14,272 nucleotides of DNA. Origin: Candidatus Thorarchaeota archaeon (GTDB taxonomy: Archaea > Asgardarchaeota > Thorarchaeia > Thorarchaeales > Thorarchaeaceae). Numbering within the stretch: the first letter of the stretch is position 1; every line of letters begins with the position of its first letter. The notes under the pieces are model-generated. The model was not told the origin of the DNA. It did not search any database and saw only the letters and a program-made list of their open reading frames with translations. The position numbers and the translations under genes were made by a program. This document shows positions 2,562 through 13,732 of the stretch, one piece after another. The DNA lies in the NCBI GenBank assembly GCA_004524595.1, contig SDOA01000106.1, positions 1 to 14,272 on the forward strand. The letters are read 5' to 3'.

Positions 2562-2972
2562 TCAATCAGAGTAATTTCTAATCGAGTCTATATGTTTAGC
2601 AATATCAGCAGCTATCTTTTCCACCAAGTCTGCACTCTCAACAATATGCCATTTCTCTTCAGGCCGAAGGGATGAACAGTCAACATAGTCTTCTAAATTG
2701 ATTTTCACTGTCGGCTCATTGCTATAATGCTCTGTACCAATCGCCGCACATAATTTTCCACACCCATCAACTGTAATAGTTGGGAACTTCTTTGCAAAGG
2801 CACGTTCACCTTCACCACCTGCAAGGAAAAGAGGAAGACAGATAGTGACAGTTTCGTCAGGTCTTAAATCATGAAGCACTCGCAAGGTCGCAGCTCGTGA
2901 AATATTTCCACCAGGACATTCTTCCCCACTACATGAGATTACACCAACTTTGGGAATATCACTCATATTCAT
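2562..2972 (-). CDS. Small DGC-domain putative zinc-binding protein (third DGC copy)
   Basis: This protein of about 136 residues has the layout of the DGC family (putative zinc-binding, Pfam DGC). It has an early cysteine in VISCSGEECPGG (C14 and C19), a central CLPLFLAGGEGE (C45) and the signature VDGCGKLC (C71 and C75). The family's conserved cysteines are proposed to bind zinc; the biochemical role is unknown. It is the last gene of a five-gene operon and overlaps the upstream DGC gene by 14 bases. The frame allows starts at 2984 (GTG), 2981, 2972 and 2966. I chose the ATG at 2972 because GGTGAT lies exactly 7 bases upstream, matching the 16S tail. The extra cysteine in GEEC is not shared with the neighbouring copies. 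Confidence 0.83.
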   Translation of the reverse strand: MNMSDIPKVGVISCSGEECPGGNISRAATLRVLHDLRPDETVTICLPLFLAGGEGERAFAKKFPTITVDGCGKLCAAIGTEHYSNEPTVKINLEDYVDCSSLRPEEKWHIVESADLVEKIAADIAKHIDSIRNYSD

Positions 2973-3357
2973 CACATCCATCACCTAAGATTATTTGGAC
3001 TATGTCCTTTGCCAAAAGTCTTCCACCATCACCAATGTTCCGAAGGGAGTCTGGTTTGTGCTCAGTATTTGCTGCAAGAACTTTGGGAACCATAACTTCC
3101 TTTGTCACTTTCACGCCAATCCGTTCAATACATAGTGTTGCACATTTTTTCGGACAGCCATCAATAGTATAGACATGTGAGTTCTGTACGAGACTGACTG
3201 CCTCTTGATCACCAGCCACCAACAGTGGCAAGCACATTGTCCTAAATTCATCGCTATGAGAGGTTTCCGTTAACTGATATGTTGCCTCTCTGGCGACTGT
3301 TCCGAAAGCTTTTCCGATTCCACTACATGGAATGACTATCTTTTTTGCATCACTCAT
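2959..3357 (-). CDS. Small DGC-domain putative zinc-binding protein (second DGC copy)
   Basis: This 132-residue protein has the DGC-family pattern: VIPCSGIGKAFGTVARE near the N-terminus (C11), MCLPLLVAGD in the middle (C42), and the signature IDGCPKKCATLC (C68, C72, C76). It is clearly a paralogue of the downstream protein and of the N-terminal half of the upstream fusion protein. The start ATG overlaps the upstream stop (ATGA arrangement at 3354-3357), implying translational coupling within the operon. Zinc binding by the cysteines is family-level expectation only. The cellular role is not known to me. Three copies in a row suggest either a heteromeric complex or stepwise transfer between related cysteine sites (inference). 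Confidence 0.83.
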   Translation of the reverse strand: MSDAKKIVIPCSGIGKAFGTVAREATYQLTETSHSDEFRTMCLPLLVAGDQEAVSLVQNSHVYTIDGCPKKCATLCIERIGVKVTKEVMVPKVLAANTEHKPDSLRNIGDGGRLLAKDIVQIILGDGCDEYE

Positions 3358-4199
3358 TCTGACACCTTCTTTCCTAGTTCATTTCTAGCCTTCTCGACCC
3401 CGTAGGTAAGATACTCAGTTGCAGTTTTCAAAATCTCCAACTCACTAATATCATCAGGTCGAATGATATACAACCAACCCTTTCCATATGGGTCCTCATT
3501 GATTAATTCTGGACTATTTTCTAGTTCGAGATTCCTATCAATAACAGTTCCTGAAACTGGTGATATAATCTCCATTGCGATTTTAGTCGACTCAAAAGAA
3601 CCGACATCATCACCTAATTCCACATGGGTTCCAACATCAACGAGATCAATGAAGTAAATATCAGAAACCATCTGCTGTAAGAGGTCTGTCGCGCCTATTC
3701 TCACAAGTTCACTCTCTTGTTGAACCCAAAAATCATTATCAGAATAGAAGAGTCCATTCTTTACTTTAAGGATAAATTTGTCAACCATCTCTGTCAAATA
3801 TTCATCTTCACAAGGTTGAAACACTTCATCTTTTGGAATATCAGTAGATGAAGTAACCCATTTTTTCTTTATCATGTCTACCAAGGCACTTACTGTTTCG
3901 TCTGTACTTCTAGTCGAAGCAATAATCTCTGTGACTTCAATAGAGTCGAATTCACGAGGTGTGTGTTTTTCTACCATTTTCGAAGCACATTTCATACTAC
4001 ACCCATCAATACATATCACAGAGGAAGATCGTAAATCTTTGATTTCTCCCGCACGTTCAGAAGCTAATGCTCCAATGCTACCAATAATCAATTCTGAATC
4101 CTCTGATTCTAATAGGTCAGCAACATGTCGTGATGTTTTTCCCCCAGGGCGATCATAACCCGCGCAAGGAAGAATATACTTCTTACTCAAATCGACCAC
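3354..4199 (-). CDS. DGC domain fused to a GcvH-like lipoyl-carrier domain
   Basis: This 281-residue protein has two domains. Residues 1-112 are DGC-like, with ILPCAGYDRPGGKTSRH (C12) and IDGCSMKCASKM (C67 and C71). Residues about 137-255 match the glycine cleavage H protein fold: LVRIGATDLLQQMVSDI, the lipoyl site FESTKIAMEIISPVSGTV with lysine 206 in the ESxK position, and NEDPYGKGWLYIIRP. In GcvH this lysine carries lipoate, which swings between partner enzymes. Here there are no glycine-cleavage P or T genes, so a different use is likely, as with the lipoate-binding proteins of Hdr-like sulfur oxidation (established elsewhere; inference here). The start is a GTG four bases after the upstream stop, with a weak AGGAT site. 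An alternative is the TTG at codon 4. I do not know this fusion as a named family. Confidence 0.85.
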   Translation of the reverse strand: MVDLSKKYILPCAGYDRPGGKTSRHVADLLESEDSELIIGSIGALASERAGEIKDLRSSSVICIDGCSMKCASKMVEKHTPREFDSIEVTEIIASTRSTDETVSALVDMIKKKWVTSSTDIPKDEVFQPCEDEYLTEMVDKFILKVKNGLFYSDNDFWVQQESELVRIGATDLLQQMVSDIYFIDLVDVGTHVELGDDVGSFESTKIAMEIISPVSGTVIDRNLELENSPELINEDPYGKGWLYIIRPDDISELEILKTATEYLTYGVEKARNELGKKVSE

Positions 4200-4203
4200 A
4201 ATC

Positions 4204-4506
4204 CTATACAGACCTTGCTTCTTTGATAATTTTCAAGATGTCCGATTTGTTTGGAAAAGATAAGGCATCTTTAGGACACATCTTTTGGCAAGCCTTGCAG
4301 AAGACCACACAGTTGTACTGATTTTTAACTTCTATTTTTGGAGGGTTATCTAAACTAATGTAGACTTGATGAGGACAGAATTTTAGACAATCAAACCCAC
4401 CAGCACACCCGTCGCATTTATCAACATCTACCACAGGCCACCAAGGTATTTTCTCTCTTGCAACACCCATGAATGTACTCCCTATTCCGCCCTCATTCGA
4501 CATCAT
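4204..4506 (-). CDS. 2[4Fe-4S] ferredoxin-like protein
   Basis: This 100-residue protein carries two cysteine clusters. The first is CDGCAGGFDCLKFCP (C31, C34, C40, C44), a CxxC-x5-CxxxCP pattern. The second is CVVFCKACQKMCP (C66, C70, C73, C77), a CxxxCxxCxxxCP pattern. Each is followed by proline, as expected for two [4Fe-4S] clusters. Both patterns depart from plain CxxCxxCxxxCP spacing: the first has five residues before its third cysteine and the second three residues after its first. It probably carries electrons between the HdrA-like protein and the lipoyl/DGC proteins encoded beside it (inference from operon position). The start at 4506 overlaps the upstream gene by 14 bases and has GGAG seven bases upstream. 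A second ATG follows immediately. The N-terminal segment before the clusters (about 25 residues) is not part of the ferredoxin fold. Confidence 0.88.
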   Translation of the reverse strand: MMSNEGGIGSTFMGVAREKIPWWPVVDVDKCDGCAGGFDCLKFCPHQVYISLDNPPKIEVKNQYNCVVFCKACQKMCPKDALSFPNKSDILKIIKEARSV

Positions 4507-4873
4507 AACCGTTCTCCTTCATTGTATTCATGACCTTTTCAAATGCTTCATCAGTGGTCATATCACGAACATCTAATGCGATGAGGTCTTCTTGCACATC
4601 AAGACCAGCTTTGGCAAAGGCATCACGGAATAACTTGTATTGCATTGCAGGGGCACATCCTGCTATTATGACCTTTTCACCGGCATTGAGTGTACTCTCC
4701 AGATATCGATCTCCGTCTTCTTCACAGAGCTGAGGATGGATCACACCATATTTGACAGGGAGTTCCATTCGTACTCGATTAATGAAGTCCCACATATCCA
4801 TCTTGGCAAAACCAGGACATTTTCCTGTACAGACACAAAAGAGGAATGCAGGTGGGTCATTCTTCGTTCCCAT
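4493..4873 (-). CDS. Stand-alone HdrA-type N-terminal iron-sulfur domain protein
   Basis: This 126-residue protein resembles only the first ~130 residues of heterodisulfide reductase subunit A. The similarity is seen in CVCTGKCPG (C13, C15, C19), HPQLCEEDGDRYLE (C50), KVIIAGCAPAM (C73), then LFRDAFAKAGLD and LDVRDM. In HdrA this module holds an Fe-S cluster and precedes the FAD domain. Here the FAD and ferredoxin domains are absent from the chain, and the next gene supplies a ferredoxin. The frame is open from 4897. I chose the ATG at 4873 because a full GGAGGT lies exactly 7 bases upstream (4881-4886) and the conserved sequence begins soon after. It is the first gene of the redox operon, with TATA box and palindrome just upstream. 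An electron-transfer role is likely; its partner is unknown. Confidence 0.8.
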   Translation of the reverse strand: MGTKNDPPAFLFCVCTGKCPGFAKMDMWDFINRVRMELPVKYGVIHPQLCEEDGDRYLESTLNAGEKVIIAGCAPAMQYKLFRDAFAKAGLDVQEDLIALDVRDMTTDEAFEKVMNTMKENGYDVE

Positions 4874-4880
4874 TAAATAA

Positions 4881-4886
4881 ACCTCC
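4881..4886 (-). promoter_or_regulatory. Strong ribosome binding site that sets the start of the HdrA-like gene
   Basis: The minus strand reads GGAGGT followed by a 7-base spacer and ATG at 4873. This consensus site rules against the earlier ATG codons at 4897 and 4894, the first of which lies inside the upstream palindrome. Confidence 0.7.
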
Positions 4887-4895
4887 ATGTTCATC

Positions 4896-4919
4896 AAATA
4901 TCGAATAATCTCGATATTT
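4896..4919. promoter_or_regulatory. 24-base perfect palindrome, candidate operator of the redox operon
   Basis: The arms AAATATCGA (4896-4904) and TCGATATTT (4911-4919) are exact reverse complements separated by six bases. The element lies between the predicted TATA box and the predicted transcription start of the minus-strand operon, overlapping the TATA edge. This is a common place for archaeal repressors to block polymerase recruitment. A regulator is not encoded in the window. An RNA hairpin is less likely because the element would mostly precede the transcript start. Confidence 0.55.
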
Positions 4920-7554: not shown

Positions 7555-8106
7555 TTACTGAGTCGATTGTTTCTCACGAGAAGTGACAAGAGTCTTAGCC
7601 AACTGCTCGAAGATGTCAACGATTCCCTCGCCGGTCTTTGCGGATGACTCGAGATAGGGCATATTATGACTATCAGCAAACTCACGACCCTCAGAAGGCT
7701 CAATGACCCGGTCAGGAAGGTCTGTCTTATTTGCGACGAGTACCAACGGGATATCCTTCCCAATCGCCTTCTTCAACTCATCAAGCCACTCCTCCAACAC
7801 GATGAAGGTCCTTCGCCGGGTCACATCATACACCAGCAGGCCTCCACTACTTCCTCGGTAATACATTGGGCGAAGAATTTGGAATCGTGATTGGCCGGCA
7901 ACATCCCAAATCTGTAATTTCACGGTCGTTCTGCTCGAATCAGGCTTGATAATCTCTACATTTTTGACAGCAAACTGGGAGCCAATGGTTGTTTTATAGT
8001 CAGTTCTGAAGAAGCCGTGAGAGAAGCGGGTAACAATAGCTGTCTTCCCGACAGCTCCTTCGCCTAAGACAACGATCTTGAAGAGAAAGTCGTAAGTACT
8101 ACTCAT
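7555..8106 (-). CDS. Rab/Ras-like small GTPase (eukaryotic-type)
   Basis: This 183-residue protein has the complete small-GTPase motif set. G1 is GEGAVGKT (15-22), G2 is threonine 40 in YKTTIG, G3 is WDVAGQSRF (67-75) with the catalytic glutamine 72, G4 is NKTD (126-129), and G5 is SSAK (154-157). MYYRGSSGGLLVYDVTRRRTF resembles the Rab-type stretch after switch II. The protein should bind and hydrolyse GTP as a molecular switch. It ends REKQSTQ with no C-terminal cysteines, so it cannot be prenylated like eukaryotic Rabs, and any membrane attachment must be indirect. The start ATG at 8106 has GGAGGG six bases upstream. Expanded Ras-superfamily families of this type are characteristic of Asgard archaea. 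The specific subfamily cannot be assigned by eye. Confidence 0.95.
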   Translation of the reverse strand: MSSTYDFLFKIVVLGEGAVGKTAIVTRFSHGFFRTDYKTTIGSQFAVKNVEIIKPDSSRTTVKLQIWDVAGQSRFQILRPMYYRGSSGGLLVYDVTRRRTFIVLEEWLDELKKAIGKDIPLVLVANKTDLPDRVIEPSEGREFADSHNMPYLESSAKTGEGIVDIFEQLAKTLVTSREKQSTQ

Positions 8107-11811: not shown

Positions 11812-12465
11812 CTACATAAGACTGGAAACATTATTCTCTGAATAGAATGGACCAGCATGTTCAGGTAATGTAATAGTAAATGCCTCAGCTCGTTCACACA
11901 TTGCTTGTACACCGCGTAATCGTGTCCTAGCATCATACAATTTCTCGTAAAAATTGTCAGCCTTCGAAATCTGAGACTTGTGCATCTTTAATGCTGCAAG
12001 AGCATATTTGTAAGTATCAGATACGTCAACGTGTACATGAGGTCTAGAGATTAGAGTATTGACCTCCATGTTATAGATTCGCTCAACGCGATGTGCATTA
12101 TCAAAAATAGTAACATGTGAAGCCCACTCCACAGCATCAAAGACTATCTTTGCGCATTCTTGGTGGTTAAGATTATAGTCCTCAATGGAATGAGTAATTA
12201 GTATTTTTGGGCGAGTCTTAAGAATTGCACCTACAACCTCATTTCGAAGGTTCTTATTGATCGCAAAATCATCACGTGCACTGTGGTACAGATTTCGCAC
12301 ACCAAGAATAGAACATGCTTCCTGTAGCTCAGCATTTCTAGTCTCATTTCCTGTCATACAATGGACGTCCACAGGGATGCCCATATCACAATGTCTTCGT
12401 ATTGTGCCTCCTGCACCAATACTCTCATCATCAGGATGCGCAACTACAACTAGAATCGAGTCCAT
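11812..12465 (-). CDS. bshB: PIG-L/LmbE-family deacetylase, likely GlcNAc-malate deacetylase (BshB role)
   Basis: This 217-residue protein has the PIG-L zinc-hydrolase signature AHPDDES (9-15), giving the metal ligands histidine 10 and aspartate 13. The third ligand is in THSIEDYNLNH (91-101) with histidine 101. ETRNAELQEACSILGV (41-56) is also typical of the family. PIG-L enzymes remove acetyl groups from GlcNAc conjugates. Divergent placement 94 bases from a bshA-type gene makes the bacillithiol precursor GlcNAc-malate the likely substrate. A residue usually aspartate before the last histidine is asparagine here (N100), a small departure. The frame is open to a TTG at 12495; I prefer the ATG at 12465, just before the first strand ILVVVAHPDDE. 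Chitin-type or mycothiol-type deacetylase roles are alternatives if the BshA assignment is wrong. Confidence 0.83.
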   Translation of the reverse strand: MDSILVVVAHPDDESIGAGGTIRRHCDMGIPVDVHCMTGNETRNAELQEACSILGVRNLYHSARDDFAINKNLRNEVVGAILKTRPKILITHSIEDYNLNHQECAKIVFDAVEWASHVTIFDNAHRVERIYNMEVNTLISRPHVHVDVSDTYKYALAALKMHKSQISKADNFYEKLYDARTRLRGVQAMCERAEAFTITLPEHAGPFYSENNVSSLM

Positions 12466-12559
12466 ACCGTACCTTTCTGTACCATATCTAATCAAGCTTT
12501 GGCATGCTTATTGTTCAAACCAAGTGCCTTAAAGGGAAGCATACACAATCAAGGAAAAG
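12466..12559. promoter_or_regulatory. Divergent promoter region between bshB and bshA genes
   Basis: This 94-base region must hold promoters in both directions. For bshA, GCTTATTG (12506-12513) or CCTTAAAG (12527-12534) could be the TATA box; AAGGA (12551-12555) is a ribosome binding site. For bshB the minus strand TTAGATATGG (about 12482-12491) is a weak candidate. Joint control of the pair through this region is likely from layout, but no clear operator is visible. Confidence 0.4.
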
Positions 12560-13732
12560 ATGGTCAGTATGAGAATAGGAGTGAATTTGTATCCATCAGT
12601 TGGTGGATCAGGATATGTTGCAACAAGATTGGGACAGCACCTAGCTGACCGTGGACATATTATCCATTTTGTCACATATCAAAGACCATTCTCAATGATG
12701 TGGCAGCAGACAAAGGGGATTCATGTTGATCTAGTAGATAGATTCGACTACCCGCTGTTCCAGGCAGTTGGACCCCCATATTCCATGGCATTGGCGTCAA
12801 AGATGATCAAGGTGGCAAAGGCTGCGGAATTGGATCTCATTCATTCTCATTATGCCATCCCACATGCAATGGCGGCATATATGGTCAGGGAAATAATAGG
12901 TCTCCCTTATGTTGTGACCCTTCATGGTTCTGATGTTCATACATTAGGATTGGATCCTGCATACAAACCGGTAGTGCAACACACTGTGGAGAGAGCTGAT
13001 GCAGTAACAGCTGTATCAGAGTTCCTTATGACGAAGGCTCACGAAGAATTAGGAATTAAAAGAGATATACATGTGATTCCAAACTTCATTGATACTACAA
13101 AATTCTCAAAAGTTTCAGGCATTCGCTTAGTTGTTGAGAGCGGCTGTGTTTCCTTAAGAAGAGAAGAAGATGCATTCGAAATAAGTCCGGAGGATAAGAT
13201 CATCCTCCATGCATCAAATTTCAGAGGAGTAAAACGAGTGGTTGAACTTGTTGAAGCAATGAAGATAGTAGTTGAAGCCATTCCGCAGGCGCGCCTGATA
13301 ATCGCTGGTGATGGACCTACTCGTATAGATGTTGAACGACGGATCGAGGCATTAAAACTCTGCAATAACATTCACCTGTTAGGCGTGAAGAGCAATATGC
13401 AAGAAATCATGTGTTCTGCAGATGTCTTTGTCTTGAATTCTACATTGGAAGGCATGCCCCTTGTTCTTCTTGAGGCAATGGCATGTAGTCTGCCAGTCGT
13501 TACTACTCCTGCAGGAGGGGTACCAGAACTGGTACGACCAGGGGTTGATGGAGTTGTCACAAAGGGCTATGAAACACAGGAATTGGCTGATGCGTTGATT
13601 AATATCCTTGAAAACGAAAGTTATCGTAAAAAGATGGGAAAAGCAGGATATCAACGGGTACAGGATAAATTCACTGCAAACAAAGTAGTGACCATGTATG
13701 AAAAGGTATTCGAAGAGGTCTGTAAGAGATAA
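12560..13732 (+). CDS. bshA: BshA-type glycosyltransferase (N-acetyl-alpha-D-glucosaminyl L-malate synthase)
   Basis: This 390-residue GT4-family glycosyltransferase matches BshA closely at the N-terminus. It has IGVNLYPSVGGSGYVATRLG (6-25), then FVTYQRPF, DYPLFQ, PPYSMALASKM, HSHYAIPHAMAAY and TLHGSDVHTLG. The C-terminal domain has IPNFIDTTKF, ASNFRGVKRV, IAGDGPTR and the EX7E motif EGMPLVLLE (E297 and E305), followed by AMACSLPVVTTPAGGVPELV. BshA transfers GlcNAc from UDP-GlcNAc to L-malate, the first step of bacillithiol synthesis. The SNFR-x-VKRV stretch and the YPSVGGSG loop separate BshA from general GT4 enzymes. AAGGA lies just before the ATG at 12560; an ATG three codons later is an alternative. 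It is followed after 16 bases by a bshC-like gene, which strongly supports the assignment. It is cytoplasmic. Confidence 0.88.
   Translation: MVSMRIGVNLYPSVGGSGYVATRLGQHLADRGHIIHFVTYQRPFSMMWQQTKGIHVDLVDRFDYPLFQAVGPPYSMALASKMIKVAKAAELDLIHSHYAIPHAMAAYMVREIIGLPYVVTLHGSDVHTLGLDPAYKPVVQHTVERADAVTAVSEFLMTKAHEELGIKRDIHVIPNFIDTTKFSKVSGIRLVVESGCVSLRREEDAFEISPEDKIILHASNFRGVKRVVELVEAMKIVVEAIPQARLIIAGDGPTRIDVERRIEALKLCNNIHLLGVKSNMQEIMCSADVFVLNSTLEGMPLVLLEAMACSLPVVTTPAGGVPELVRPGVDGVVTKGYETQELADALINILENESYRKKMGKAGYQRVQDKFTANKVVTMYEKVFEEVCKR

Follow-up and report, generated by a model that had tools for sequence, protein, structure and literature searches.

What does a lipoyl protein do in an operon otherwise made of iron-sulfur and DGC proteins? 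The question is raised by contig SDOA01000106.1 of a Thorarchaeota genome, from which a stretch of 14,272 nt was analyzed (the window, by which the whole of this stretch is meant). Five minus-strand ORFs occupy the 2562..4919 region, all present as placed in the original prediction. They overlap or nearly abut, with gaps of −14, +4, −4 and −26 bp from the ORF at 4493-4897 to that at 2562-2984, in agreement with the single operon that had been proposed. The features are:

4493..4897, minus strand: HdrAN, a free-standing protein related to the N-terminal Fe-S domain of HdrA (conserved cysteines and a profile match to 7bkb_A)
4204..4506, minus strand: two-cluster 4Fe-4S ferredoxin (Fer4_9 at 27.8 bits, cut-off 27; eight conserved cysteines)
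3354..4199, minus strand: DGC-GcvH fusion, with DGC at residues 9-99 (46.5 bits) and a GcvH-like lipoyl domain at residues 151-265 (GCV_H, 114.7 bits)
3582..3584, minus strand: codon of lysine 206, the predicted lipoylation site (from invariance and alignment; coordinates counted from the ORF start, 4199)
2959..3357, minus strand: DGC2, a stand-alone DGC protein with four conserved cysteines (Pfam DGC, 65.1 bits)
2562..2984, minus strand: DGC1, a stand-alone DGC protein with four conserved cysteines (Pfam DGC, 54.3 bits)
4896..4919, no strand assigned: perfect palindrome AAATATCGA-N6-TCGATATTT in the cassette promoter, a candidate ArsR-type operator (motif match compared with shuffles)

The true start of HdrAN is more likely the ATG at 4873 than the TTG at 4897, because GGAGGT lies just upstream of the ATG and the TTG sits within the promoter palindrome.

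Conservation of the gene order, which had been proposed as a check, was examined in other genomes. The order HdrAN, ferredoxin, DGC-GcvH fusion, DGC, DGC is complete in 36 of 42 relative loci, which come from 38 genomes, include close relatives and are therefore not fully independent, so that Fisher p-values computed on them exaggerate their independence. Two loci (L003 and L004) were excluded from the 42 as they are the same places as L148 and L147. One genome contributes both L002 and L186, as separate contigs, and three genomes hold two cassettes each (L001 and L173; L151 and L172; L006 and L147). Within complete cassettes 143/144 intergenic gaps are 60 bp or less. Since the order recurs across phyla, in Asgard archaea, Acidobacteria and the phylum of Desulfosporosinus, the grouping is more than chance.

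Conserved residues were examined in alignments from which only identical rows were merged and in which near-copies from overlapping loci remain. HdrAN has five invariant cysteines, C21, C23, C27, C58 and C81 (alignments of 57 and of 27 sequences). Its profile matches solved HdrA 7bkb_A (E 4e-4), with four of the five aligned to HdrA cysteines that we take to be cluster-binding; C27 is an extra cysteine that has no counterpart there. The Pfam scan gave no HdrA domain in 4493-4897 and the NCBIfam HdrA match is weak (E 0.006), so kinship with HdrA rests on the profile match to 7bkb_A. Thus the predicted stand-alone HdrA N-terminal domain is borne out by comparison with a solved HdrA and not by the family libraries. 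In contrast to HdrA (PDB 7bkb, 9sfi, 5odc), HdrAN stands alone, lacks the flavin domain and has one additional invariant cysteine; neither a thioredoxin-reductase-like FAD domain nor further clusters were found by Pfam or NCBIfam in this 134-residue protein. A search for HdrAN on plasmids gave no match. The ferredoxin retains its eight cluster cysteines in 53/53 aligned sequences, as the predicted two-cluster protein should.

All three DGC domains exceed the Pfam cut-off of 27 bits (PF08859), which together with the GCV_H score confirms the predicted fusion and two further DGC proteins. The cysteines of DGC2 are nearly invariant among 62 sequences (C11 at 1.00; C42, C68 and C72 at 0.98), and C18, C49, C75 and C79 of DGC1 are present in 29/29. 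Pfam describes the family as 'DGC domain' only, and 'PF08859' is absent from open-access PMC text. DGC1 was modelled (m8bca3cac8136, mean pLDDT 89.5). Fold searches with DGC gave no clear solved relative and no functional lead. Two possible relationships were rejected. Weak Foldseek rows linked DGC to LMW-PTP folds, and hence to ArsC of that type, where profile comparison found no relation (probability 1.1). Relation to HdrAN was not borne out either (probability 6.6).

Lysine 206 of the fusion (model m4d7648045bd0, mean pLDDT 88.4) is invariant in 36/36 fusions, and in 37/37 in a second alignment. In alignments it falls on the ESVK-motif lysine of solved GcvH structures, the residue that carries the lipoyl group there, and is accordingly predicted to be lipoylated, as first proposed. 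Lipoylation machinery was also sought: a lipoate-ligase-family gene is present in 26/27 of the relatives' cassette genomes, the one in which none was found being G135, a genome with two cassettes. Ligase and dihydrolipoamide dehydrogenase (Lpd) genes join some cassettes.

An arsenic context is suggested by the genes that flank the relatives' cassettes. The ars queries used found no ars gene or ArsR within the window itself, so the arsenic context is invisible from the window alone. Among the relatives, ACR3, ArsM, ArsP, ArsC or ArsA lies near 21/42 cassettes and 15/18 reduced HdrAN/ferredoxin loci, compared with 0/72 other gcvH loci; the neighbor families were picked after the flanks had been viewed, and the 72 controls were taken on GcvH alone, without a gcvT/gcvP criterion. 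With ACR3 or ArsM alone the counts are 20/42, 12/18 and 0/72, and for ArsR-family genes they are 36/42, 15/18 and 8/72. ArsR adjoins the cassette also in the two closest relatives (L001 and L002). The nearest ArsR has a CxC motif in 30/36 loci by printed motifs, and a strict CxC pattern matched only 19/36 ArsR proteins. No specific ars gene occurs in the stretch covered at the other 21/42 cassette loci, several of which are short contigs.

The names of these neighbors differ in certainty. Query proteins for ACR3, ArsM, Lpd and one LplA were backed by NCBIfam, those for one ArsP, one ArsR, one CMD and another LplA by Pfam, and the other ArsP, ArsC, ArsA, CcdA and some ArsR were named by eye. 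Representatives exceeded the NCBIfam cut-offs in 3/3 cases for ACR3, 3/3 for ArsM, 1/2 for lipoate ligase and 1/1 for dihydrolipoyl dehydrogenase. A separate tally covered 133 flanking proteins (24/42 loci, at most three ORFs per side, overlapping ORFs resolved in favor of those already annotated, a rule that leaves an element of choice in the tally), in which the commonest Pfam matches were ArsR-type HTH_5 (21), SBF/ACR3 (6), pyridine nucleotide-disulphide oxidoreductase (5) and LplA (5). ACR3 was called at 17 loci, four of them below the NCBIfam cut-off (L157, 247 bits; L171, 109; L178, 173, cut by the contig end; L182, 281.2 against 282.8). It lies in or adjoins the operon at L155, L156, L173, L174 and L182, the last just under the cut-off as noted. 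Over whole genomes, ACR3 above cut-off is absent from 6/27 cassette genomes. ArsM (NF008823) is above cut-off in 16/27 and is therefore not a universal partner. Glutaredoxin-type ArsC (TIGR00014) is above cut-off in 0/27, and LMW-PTP-family proteins, which the search does not distinguish from ArsC, occur in 23/27. The first count would agree with a cassette that stands in for ArsC, and the second keeps that idea tentative.

The promoter provides a second connection. The palindrome has one exact match against 0.01 expected in shuffles, and it runs into a TATA-like stretch. The same motif, with 0-1 mismatch, recurs in 11/12 other Thorarchaeota loci that have upstream sequence, ahead of ACR3 in L174 and ahead of HdrAN in the others, suggesting that it may be an ArsR-type operator. 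In the relatives the cassette resembles ars operons (ArsR, ACR3, ArsM, ArsC) in its ArsR-type regulators, most with CxC, in its ACR3, ArsM and ArsP neighbors and, in Thorarchaeota, in a palindrome shared with ACR3. It differs from them in its five core genes, none of which was hit by the ars queries used.

The operon had originally been read as an electron or sulfur relay. A lipoyl arm moving between Fe-S carriers and cysteine-rich DGC sites is still the best architectural reading; the sulfur part gives way to arsenic, because the neighbors and the shared palindrome point there. By association, the cassette is very probably linked to arsenic. Our preferred reading is an arsenic-handling module under ArsR control with a dedicated lipoylated carrier; the probability that a lipoyl redox module serves arsenic handling here, whatever the exact substrate, we put at roughly 0.65. 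In such a module K206 would be loaded by a lipoate ligase, and electrons would pass from the two-cluster ferredoxin to the HdrA-like Fe-S protein and on to the lipoyl arm. In some bacteria NADH electrons may also enter through a dihydrolipoamide dehydrogenase encoded directly upstream; where both Lpd and ferredoxin/HdrAN are present, electron flow is possible in either direction. The reduced dithiol arm would then reach the cysteines of the DGC domains, in the fusion and in the two separate proteins; there arsenate, thioarsenate or a methylated As(V) species might be reduced, or released as As(III), and the As(III) would be exported by ACR3 or methylated by ArsM.

This specific reductive chemistry is a tentative assignment, at somewhat less than even odds. 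Held a little more loosely still is the general proposal that GcvH-like lipoyl proteins include a further functional class dedicated to arsenic in anaerobic archaea and bacteria, with a ferredoxin-driven arm, an HdrA-like protein acting as ferredoxin:lipoyl reductase and arsenic species reduced or desulfurised on DGC cysteines. Arsenite classically attacks lipoyl groups; if the proposal is true, an arsenic-detoxifying machine has been made from a cofactor that arsenite itself poisons. Conservation of a lipoyl-arsenic module in bacteria as well as in Asgard archaea would give lipoate one more role and hint at what DGC proteins do. The module may give a low-potential, ferredoxin-driven arsenic route in anoxic sediments; ArsC of the thioredoxin type takes its electrons from NADPH.

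Several other explanations were weighed against the arsenic module. That the fusion is an ordinary glycine cleavage H protein with unrelated neighbors is extremely unlikely, even though it has the GCV_H domain and lysine of such proteins and 25/27 cassette genomes encode a P-protein over cut-off. The cassette protein is fused to DGC, and in a GcvH-domain tree 30 fusion and 3 short-form rows are separated from 49 other GcvH rows (every second one of 77, plus the archaeal ones) by a branch with support of 96/89; once the short forms are set aside, the fusion rows have no support as a group (70/10). A further GCV_H match beyond that of the cassette occurs in 25/27 cassette genomes, and in 15/27 another GcvH lies directly beside the P-protein. 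In two cassette genomes, G612 and G515, no P-protein exceeds the cut-off. In G612 (about 3.1 Mb in all, with a contig of 3,069,953 bases) the cassette GcvH is the sole GcvH and the only two ligase-family genes both adjoin the cassette; the same holds for G515, with one ligase gene in place of two. On tree, P-protein and copy-number results a glycine cleavage role was rejected, consistent with the original view that this is not the standard system. A sulfur relay resembling the Hdr-like (sHdr) sulfur oxidation system was rejected as well, on the window and flanking proteins covered, and is very unlikely. Work on sHdr and LbpA (PMC6067878, PMC10332631) describes a similar combination, namely a GcvH-like lipoyl protein outside glycine cleavage, an HdrA-related Fe-S protein and ligases near some clusters. 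The cassette differs in having only the N-terminal HdrA part, three DGC domains and ars neighbors, and a term search found neither 'arsen' nor 'DGC' in the main texts of those two papers. No HdrB/C or sulfur-transfer family is present in the ten window proteins scanned, five of which are the operon itself, or among the 25 commonest of 112 Pfam families in the 133 flanking proteins, which upholds the earlier statement that HdrB/C genes do not lie beside the operon; the recurrent neighbors are ars genes. A thioarsenate substrate would merge the sulfur relay with the arsenic reading.

The remaining alternatives keep the thiol chemistry and change its purpose. The DGC proteins could act as chaperones that hold As(III) at sites of three or four cysteines; the lipoyl dithiol would then ferry As(III) to ACR3 or ArsM, and ferredoxin, HdrAN and Lpd would do no more than keep thiols reduced. 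The conserved DGC cysteines and the five loci with ACR3 in or beside the operon agree with such a carrier, as does the binding of As(III) to vicinal thiols and, weakly, to lipoic acid, according to PMC6205960. Nevertheless, a strictly conserved 8Fe ferredoxin and an Fe-S HdrA-like protein would seem to exceed the needs of thiol upkeep, half of the cassette loci lack a specific ars gene over the stretch covered, and we consider a carrier in place of a reductase unlikely. The arm might instead deliver reductant to partner thiol enzymes (OsmC, AhpD-like CMD proteins, ArsE-like thioredoxin, ArsM, ArsC) and not to arsenic itself. Lipoyl proteins serve as reductants of OsmC/Ohr and of mycobacterial AhpD, OsmC-like genes adjoin all three short-form cassettes (L005, L019, L023), and CMD and thioredoxin-like genes each occur in 5/42 loci. 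Such partners vary and none of them reaches half of the 42 loci, in contrast to the constant DGC proteins, making this role distinctly improbable. Least probable among these thiol-based alternatives, and only barely credible, is a response to another thiophilic element such as antimony, mercury or selenium, with the ars neighbors explained by shared regulators. ArsR-family proteins do sense several metals, and L139-L141 have a gene resembling cysteine desulfurase/selenocysteine lyase close to the cassette; the specific neighbors, however, are arsenic genes (ACR3 and ArsM, less surely ArsP, ArsC and ArsA).

The original prediction knew of no description of this gene set. None was found in the portions of open-access PMC text consulted; the passages available from arsenic papers likewise make no mention of the lipoyl and HdrA-like parts. 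A parallel is the arsC-1 context of Fusibacter sp. 3D3, where PMC9751042 places a ferredoxin and a redox-active disulfide protein and proposes As(V) reduction fed by reduced ferredoxin. The likeness, a ferredoxin in an ars context, was drawn by description and not by sequence, and unlike the cassette parts the text contains 0 occurrences of 'lipo', 'heterodisulfide' and 'zinc-binding'. Two further records concern named bacteria. Desulfosporosinus sp. FKB, with a genome record that bears no MAG label, carries the cassette (L047 in G019; cassette in L086), and Eubacteriaceae bacterium ES3 encodes the fusion; with these two the system looks testable in cultured bacteria.

The original prediction described five overlapping or abutting minus-strand genes, and this arrangement was borne out, with successive gaps of -14, +4, -4 and -26 bp:

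4493-4897, minus strand: HdrAN, a stand-alone Fe-S protein like the HdrA N-terminus
4204-4506, minus strand: Fd, a two-cluster ferredoxin
3354-4199, minus strand: the DGC-GcvH fusion
2959-3357, minus strand: DGC2
2562-2984, minus strand: DGC1

The predicted three DGC domains, all above the Pfam cut-off, and one GcvH domain were recovered, and the ferredoxin was confirmed by eight cysteines kept in 53/53 aligned sequences. The proposed relation to HdrA is genuine but distant. A profile of 27 HdrAN sequences matched the N-terminal domain of a solved HdrA (7bkb_A, E 4e-4). Of the five cysteines that are invariant in HdrAN, C21, C23, C58 and C81 align on HdrA cysteines and C27 is extra. K206 of the fusion indeed lies in the lipoyl position: in alignment with solved GcvH proteins it falls on the ESVK lysine, their lipoyl lysine, and it is invariant in 36/36 aligned fusions. 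Structure models were confident for the fusion and DGC1 (mean pLDDT 88.4 and 89.5); with a pTM of 0.55 for the fusion, how its two halves are placed relative to each other is uncertain.

The same gene order was sought in other genomes. A contig scan with the fusion as query gave 80 loci, and the full order was seen in Thorarchaeota (L001) and Acidobacteria (L003, L004, L006). When wider stretches were examined, the five-gene order was complete in 36/42 cassette loci, with intergenic gaps of at most 60 bp in 143/144 cases. L002 and L186, among the six incomplete loci, are truncated at contig edges. Another of the six is L150 (G182:C1, near 1327210), whose DGC-GcvH gene is not intact, the GcvH profile matching over a short stretch only. 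Among the 36 closest HdrAN loci (E below 1e-45), 34 have the order HdrAN-Fd-DGC/GcvH; of the other two, L082 stops at a contig edge and the fusion of L100 is incomplete. Whole-genome searches with HdrAN (E <= 1e-15) found matches in 25/195 genomes of the phylum of G001 (Asgard), 6/199 of that of G003 (Acidobacteria), 19/348 of that of G019 (Desulfosporosinus) and 1/247 of that of G014 (a Desulfobacteraceae MAG). Predicted proteins matching HdrAN at E <= 1e-3 numbered 1,326; those matching the fusion numbered 108, a count that includes the window protein itself and a few that are fragments or have a single domain. The predicted operon is confirmed, and outside the window it recurs as a widely conserved module. 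The other three of the six incomplete loci carry a short form made up of an unfused GcvH, two DGC genes and also an OsmC-like gene, lacking HdrAN and Fd and with ArsR close by:

L005:7977-9711, short form
L019:7959-9874, short form
L023:8010 to about 9460, short form

The neighbours of the module suggest its role. Three representative ACR3 proteins scored above the 282.8-bit cut-off and three ArsM proteins above 263 bits; a lipoate-protein ligase from L143 was above cut-off, that of L147 was a part match only, and the family identity of the dihydrolipoyl dehydrogenase (Lpd) representative was confirmed. Counted from confirmed representatives and further queries, some of which were identified by eye, specific ars genes (ACR3, ArsM, ArsP, ArsC, ArsA) occur in 21/42 cassette loci, 15/18 reduced loci (more distant HdrAN loci without DGC or GcvH) and 0/72 other gcvH loci, controls of similar length. 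ACR3 or ArsM alone gave 20/42, 12/18 and 0/72, and ArsR-family genes 36/42, 15/18 and 8/72, respectively. ACR3 was called at 17 loci, four of them under the NCBIfam cut-off (L157; L171, 109 bits; L178, cut by the contig end; L182, 1.6 bits short). Other neighbours of the 42 cassettes were ligase (8), Lpd (5), CMD (5), thioredoxin-like (5) and OsmC-like (3) genes. In 133 flanking proteins from 24/42 loci, with overlapping ORFs chosen with help of the earlier neighbour annotation, the commonest Pfam families were HTH_5 (ArsR-type, 21), SBF/ACR3 (6), pyridine nucleotide-disulphide oxidoreductase (5) and LplA (5). ArsR proteins that sense As(III) are distinguished by a CxC motif close to the recognition helix; the nearest ArsR has CxC in 30/36 loci by printed motifs and 19/36 by a stricter pattern. 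The cassette is a widely conserved module that very likely serves arsenic, and the sulfur part of the original prediction is unsupported.

Several further genes lie near relatives' cassettes. A second DGC pair is found in L177 (1347-2298, divergent, beside ArsR) and L139 (13420-15880, with its own ArsR and ligase). A cysteine-rich 110-aa protein follows the cassette in L140 (4458-7685) and at like places in L141 and L142, joined in L140 and L141 by a cysteine desulfurase/selenocysteine lyase-like gene; further on in all three are an Fe-S motif protein (PF04060) and two ArsP-like permease halves, family scans covering L140 only. Four loci hold a small cysteine-containing protein of about 94-102 aa, which in L150-L152 is flanked by ArsR on one side and an additional DGC gene on the other; the two members scanned had no Pfam match:

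L149:8116-8409, small cysteine-containing protein
L150:10962-11270, small cysteine-containing protein
L151:5181-5474, small cysteine-containing protein
L152:5306-5590, small cysteine-containing protein

With the same gene queries no ars gene or ArsR was found in the window. In L001 and L002, the window's nearest relatives, ArsR comes 6 bp after DGC1; in its place the window has a saccharopine dehydrogenase-like gene. The window does carry an exact palindrome, AAATATCGA-N6-TCGATATTT, at 4896-4919 (0.01 expected). Among 12 other distinct Thorarchaeota loci with upstream sequence, 11 have it, with at most one mismatch, immediately upstream of HdrAN (L001, L149, L156, L171, L173, L177, L178, L181, L182, L186) or, in L174, in front of ACR3, the first gene. 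In the remaining locus, L155, only a two-mismatch copy is present, at the ACR3 ORF start. L156, L173 and L182 likewise have ACR3 before HdrAN, with the palindrome between them, and two-mismatch copies occur upstream of ACR3 in L156, L171 and L182. On both strands, with duplicate loci L081 and L082 included, the motif had 23 hits in 157 kb of these loci versus 12 in 968 kb of control loci. Other Asgard loci (L153, L157, L183, L184) have a different palindrome of at least 24 bp between HdrAN and a divergent ArsR. From these promoter patterns, the window cassette is likely also under ArsR-type control, by a regulator that would be encoded elsewhere.

HdrAN was present in 17, Fd in 16 and DGC or GcvH in none of the 18 reduced loci, a set that takes in L170, whose HdrAN match (E 7.6e-7) is doubtful and which has nothing around it. 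Since 17/18 have an ars gene or ArsR, HdrAN and ferredoxin may form an arsenic-metabolism electron-delivery unit in their own right. The more distant HdrAN tier (L158-L169, L187-L191) lacks DGC and GcvH, mostly has a ferredoxin, and lies inside or close to ars operons; L164, for example, has ArsR along with ArsP-like genes and two ArsA-like ones.

A lipoate-ligase-family gene, candidate lipoylation machinery, is present in 26/27 cassette genomes. A role of the cassette GcvH in glycine cleavage is very unlikely on tree, copy-number and P-protein results. The tree was built from 82 GcvH domains, with few columns and some long branches; in it, a branch supported at 96/89 parts 30 fusion and 3 short-form rows from 49 other GcvH; fusion rows without the short forms make no supported group (70/10). 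All 27 genomes have GcvH (25 with more than one match), 25/27 have P-protein above cut-off, and in 15/27 a non-cassette GcvH directly adjoins P-protein. The telling exceptions are G612 (a contig of 3,069,953 bases, the genome given as 3.1 Mb) and the draft G515: the cassette GcvH is their only GcvH, their sole ligase-family genes adjoin the cassette, and these are the two genomes without P-protein above cut-off. ACR3 was above cut-off in 21/27 cassette genomes, ArsM in 16/27 and glutaredoxin-type ArsC in 0/27.

Of the constant parts, Fd and HdrAN would donate electrons, the predicted lipoyl group on K206 would be a swinging dithiol, and the three DGC domains would provide cysteine centres. Among the variable parts, ligase would load the lipoyl arm and Lpd reduce it; OsmC, CMD and thioredoxin-like proteins may use it; ArsR would sense arsenic, and ACR3, ArsM and ArsP dispose of it. 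In the simplest chain, each step conditional, electrons would pass from ferredoxin through HdrAN, lipoyl and DGC to an arsenic species, yielding As(III) for ACR3 or ArsM. The strongest rival holds that the DGC and lipoyl thiols carry As(III); in an arsenic resistance gene survey, lipoic acid is named as a thiol bound by arsenite, the sole 'lipo' match, and 'ferredoxin', 'glycine' and 'DGC' have no matches (PMC6205960). As to electron transfer from ferredoxin, a study of Fusibacter 3D3 describes a ferredoxin near arsC and proposes arsenate reduction with reduced ferredoxin as the electron source (PMC9751042).

The domain families are each known; their conserved combination and arsenic context appear new. 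Within the portion of the open-access literature covered, no description was found of arsenic genes together with a set of lipoyl, HdrA-like and DGC proteins, and a term search of the main texts of two LbpA/lipoate papers gave neither 'arsen' nor 'DGC' (PMC6067878, PMC10332631).

Other genes in the window include the following:

12560-13732, plus strand: glycosyltransferase above the NCBIfam equivalog cut-off for BshA (374 vs 273.7 bits)
11812-12495, minus strand: BshB1-like deacetylase beside the BshA gene (84.6 bits, under the cut-off of 182.5)
7555-8106, minus strand: Ras-family small GTPase (Pfam E 1e-49)

A comparable BshA/BshB1-like pair occurs in L177 (same family results) and L186 (by eye), and a bacillithiol-like thiol pathway in Thorarchaeota is possible. 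The small GTPase is expected in an Asgard archaeon.
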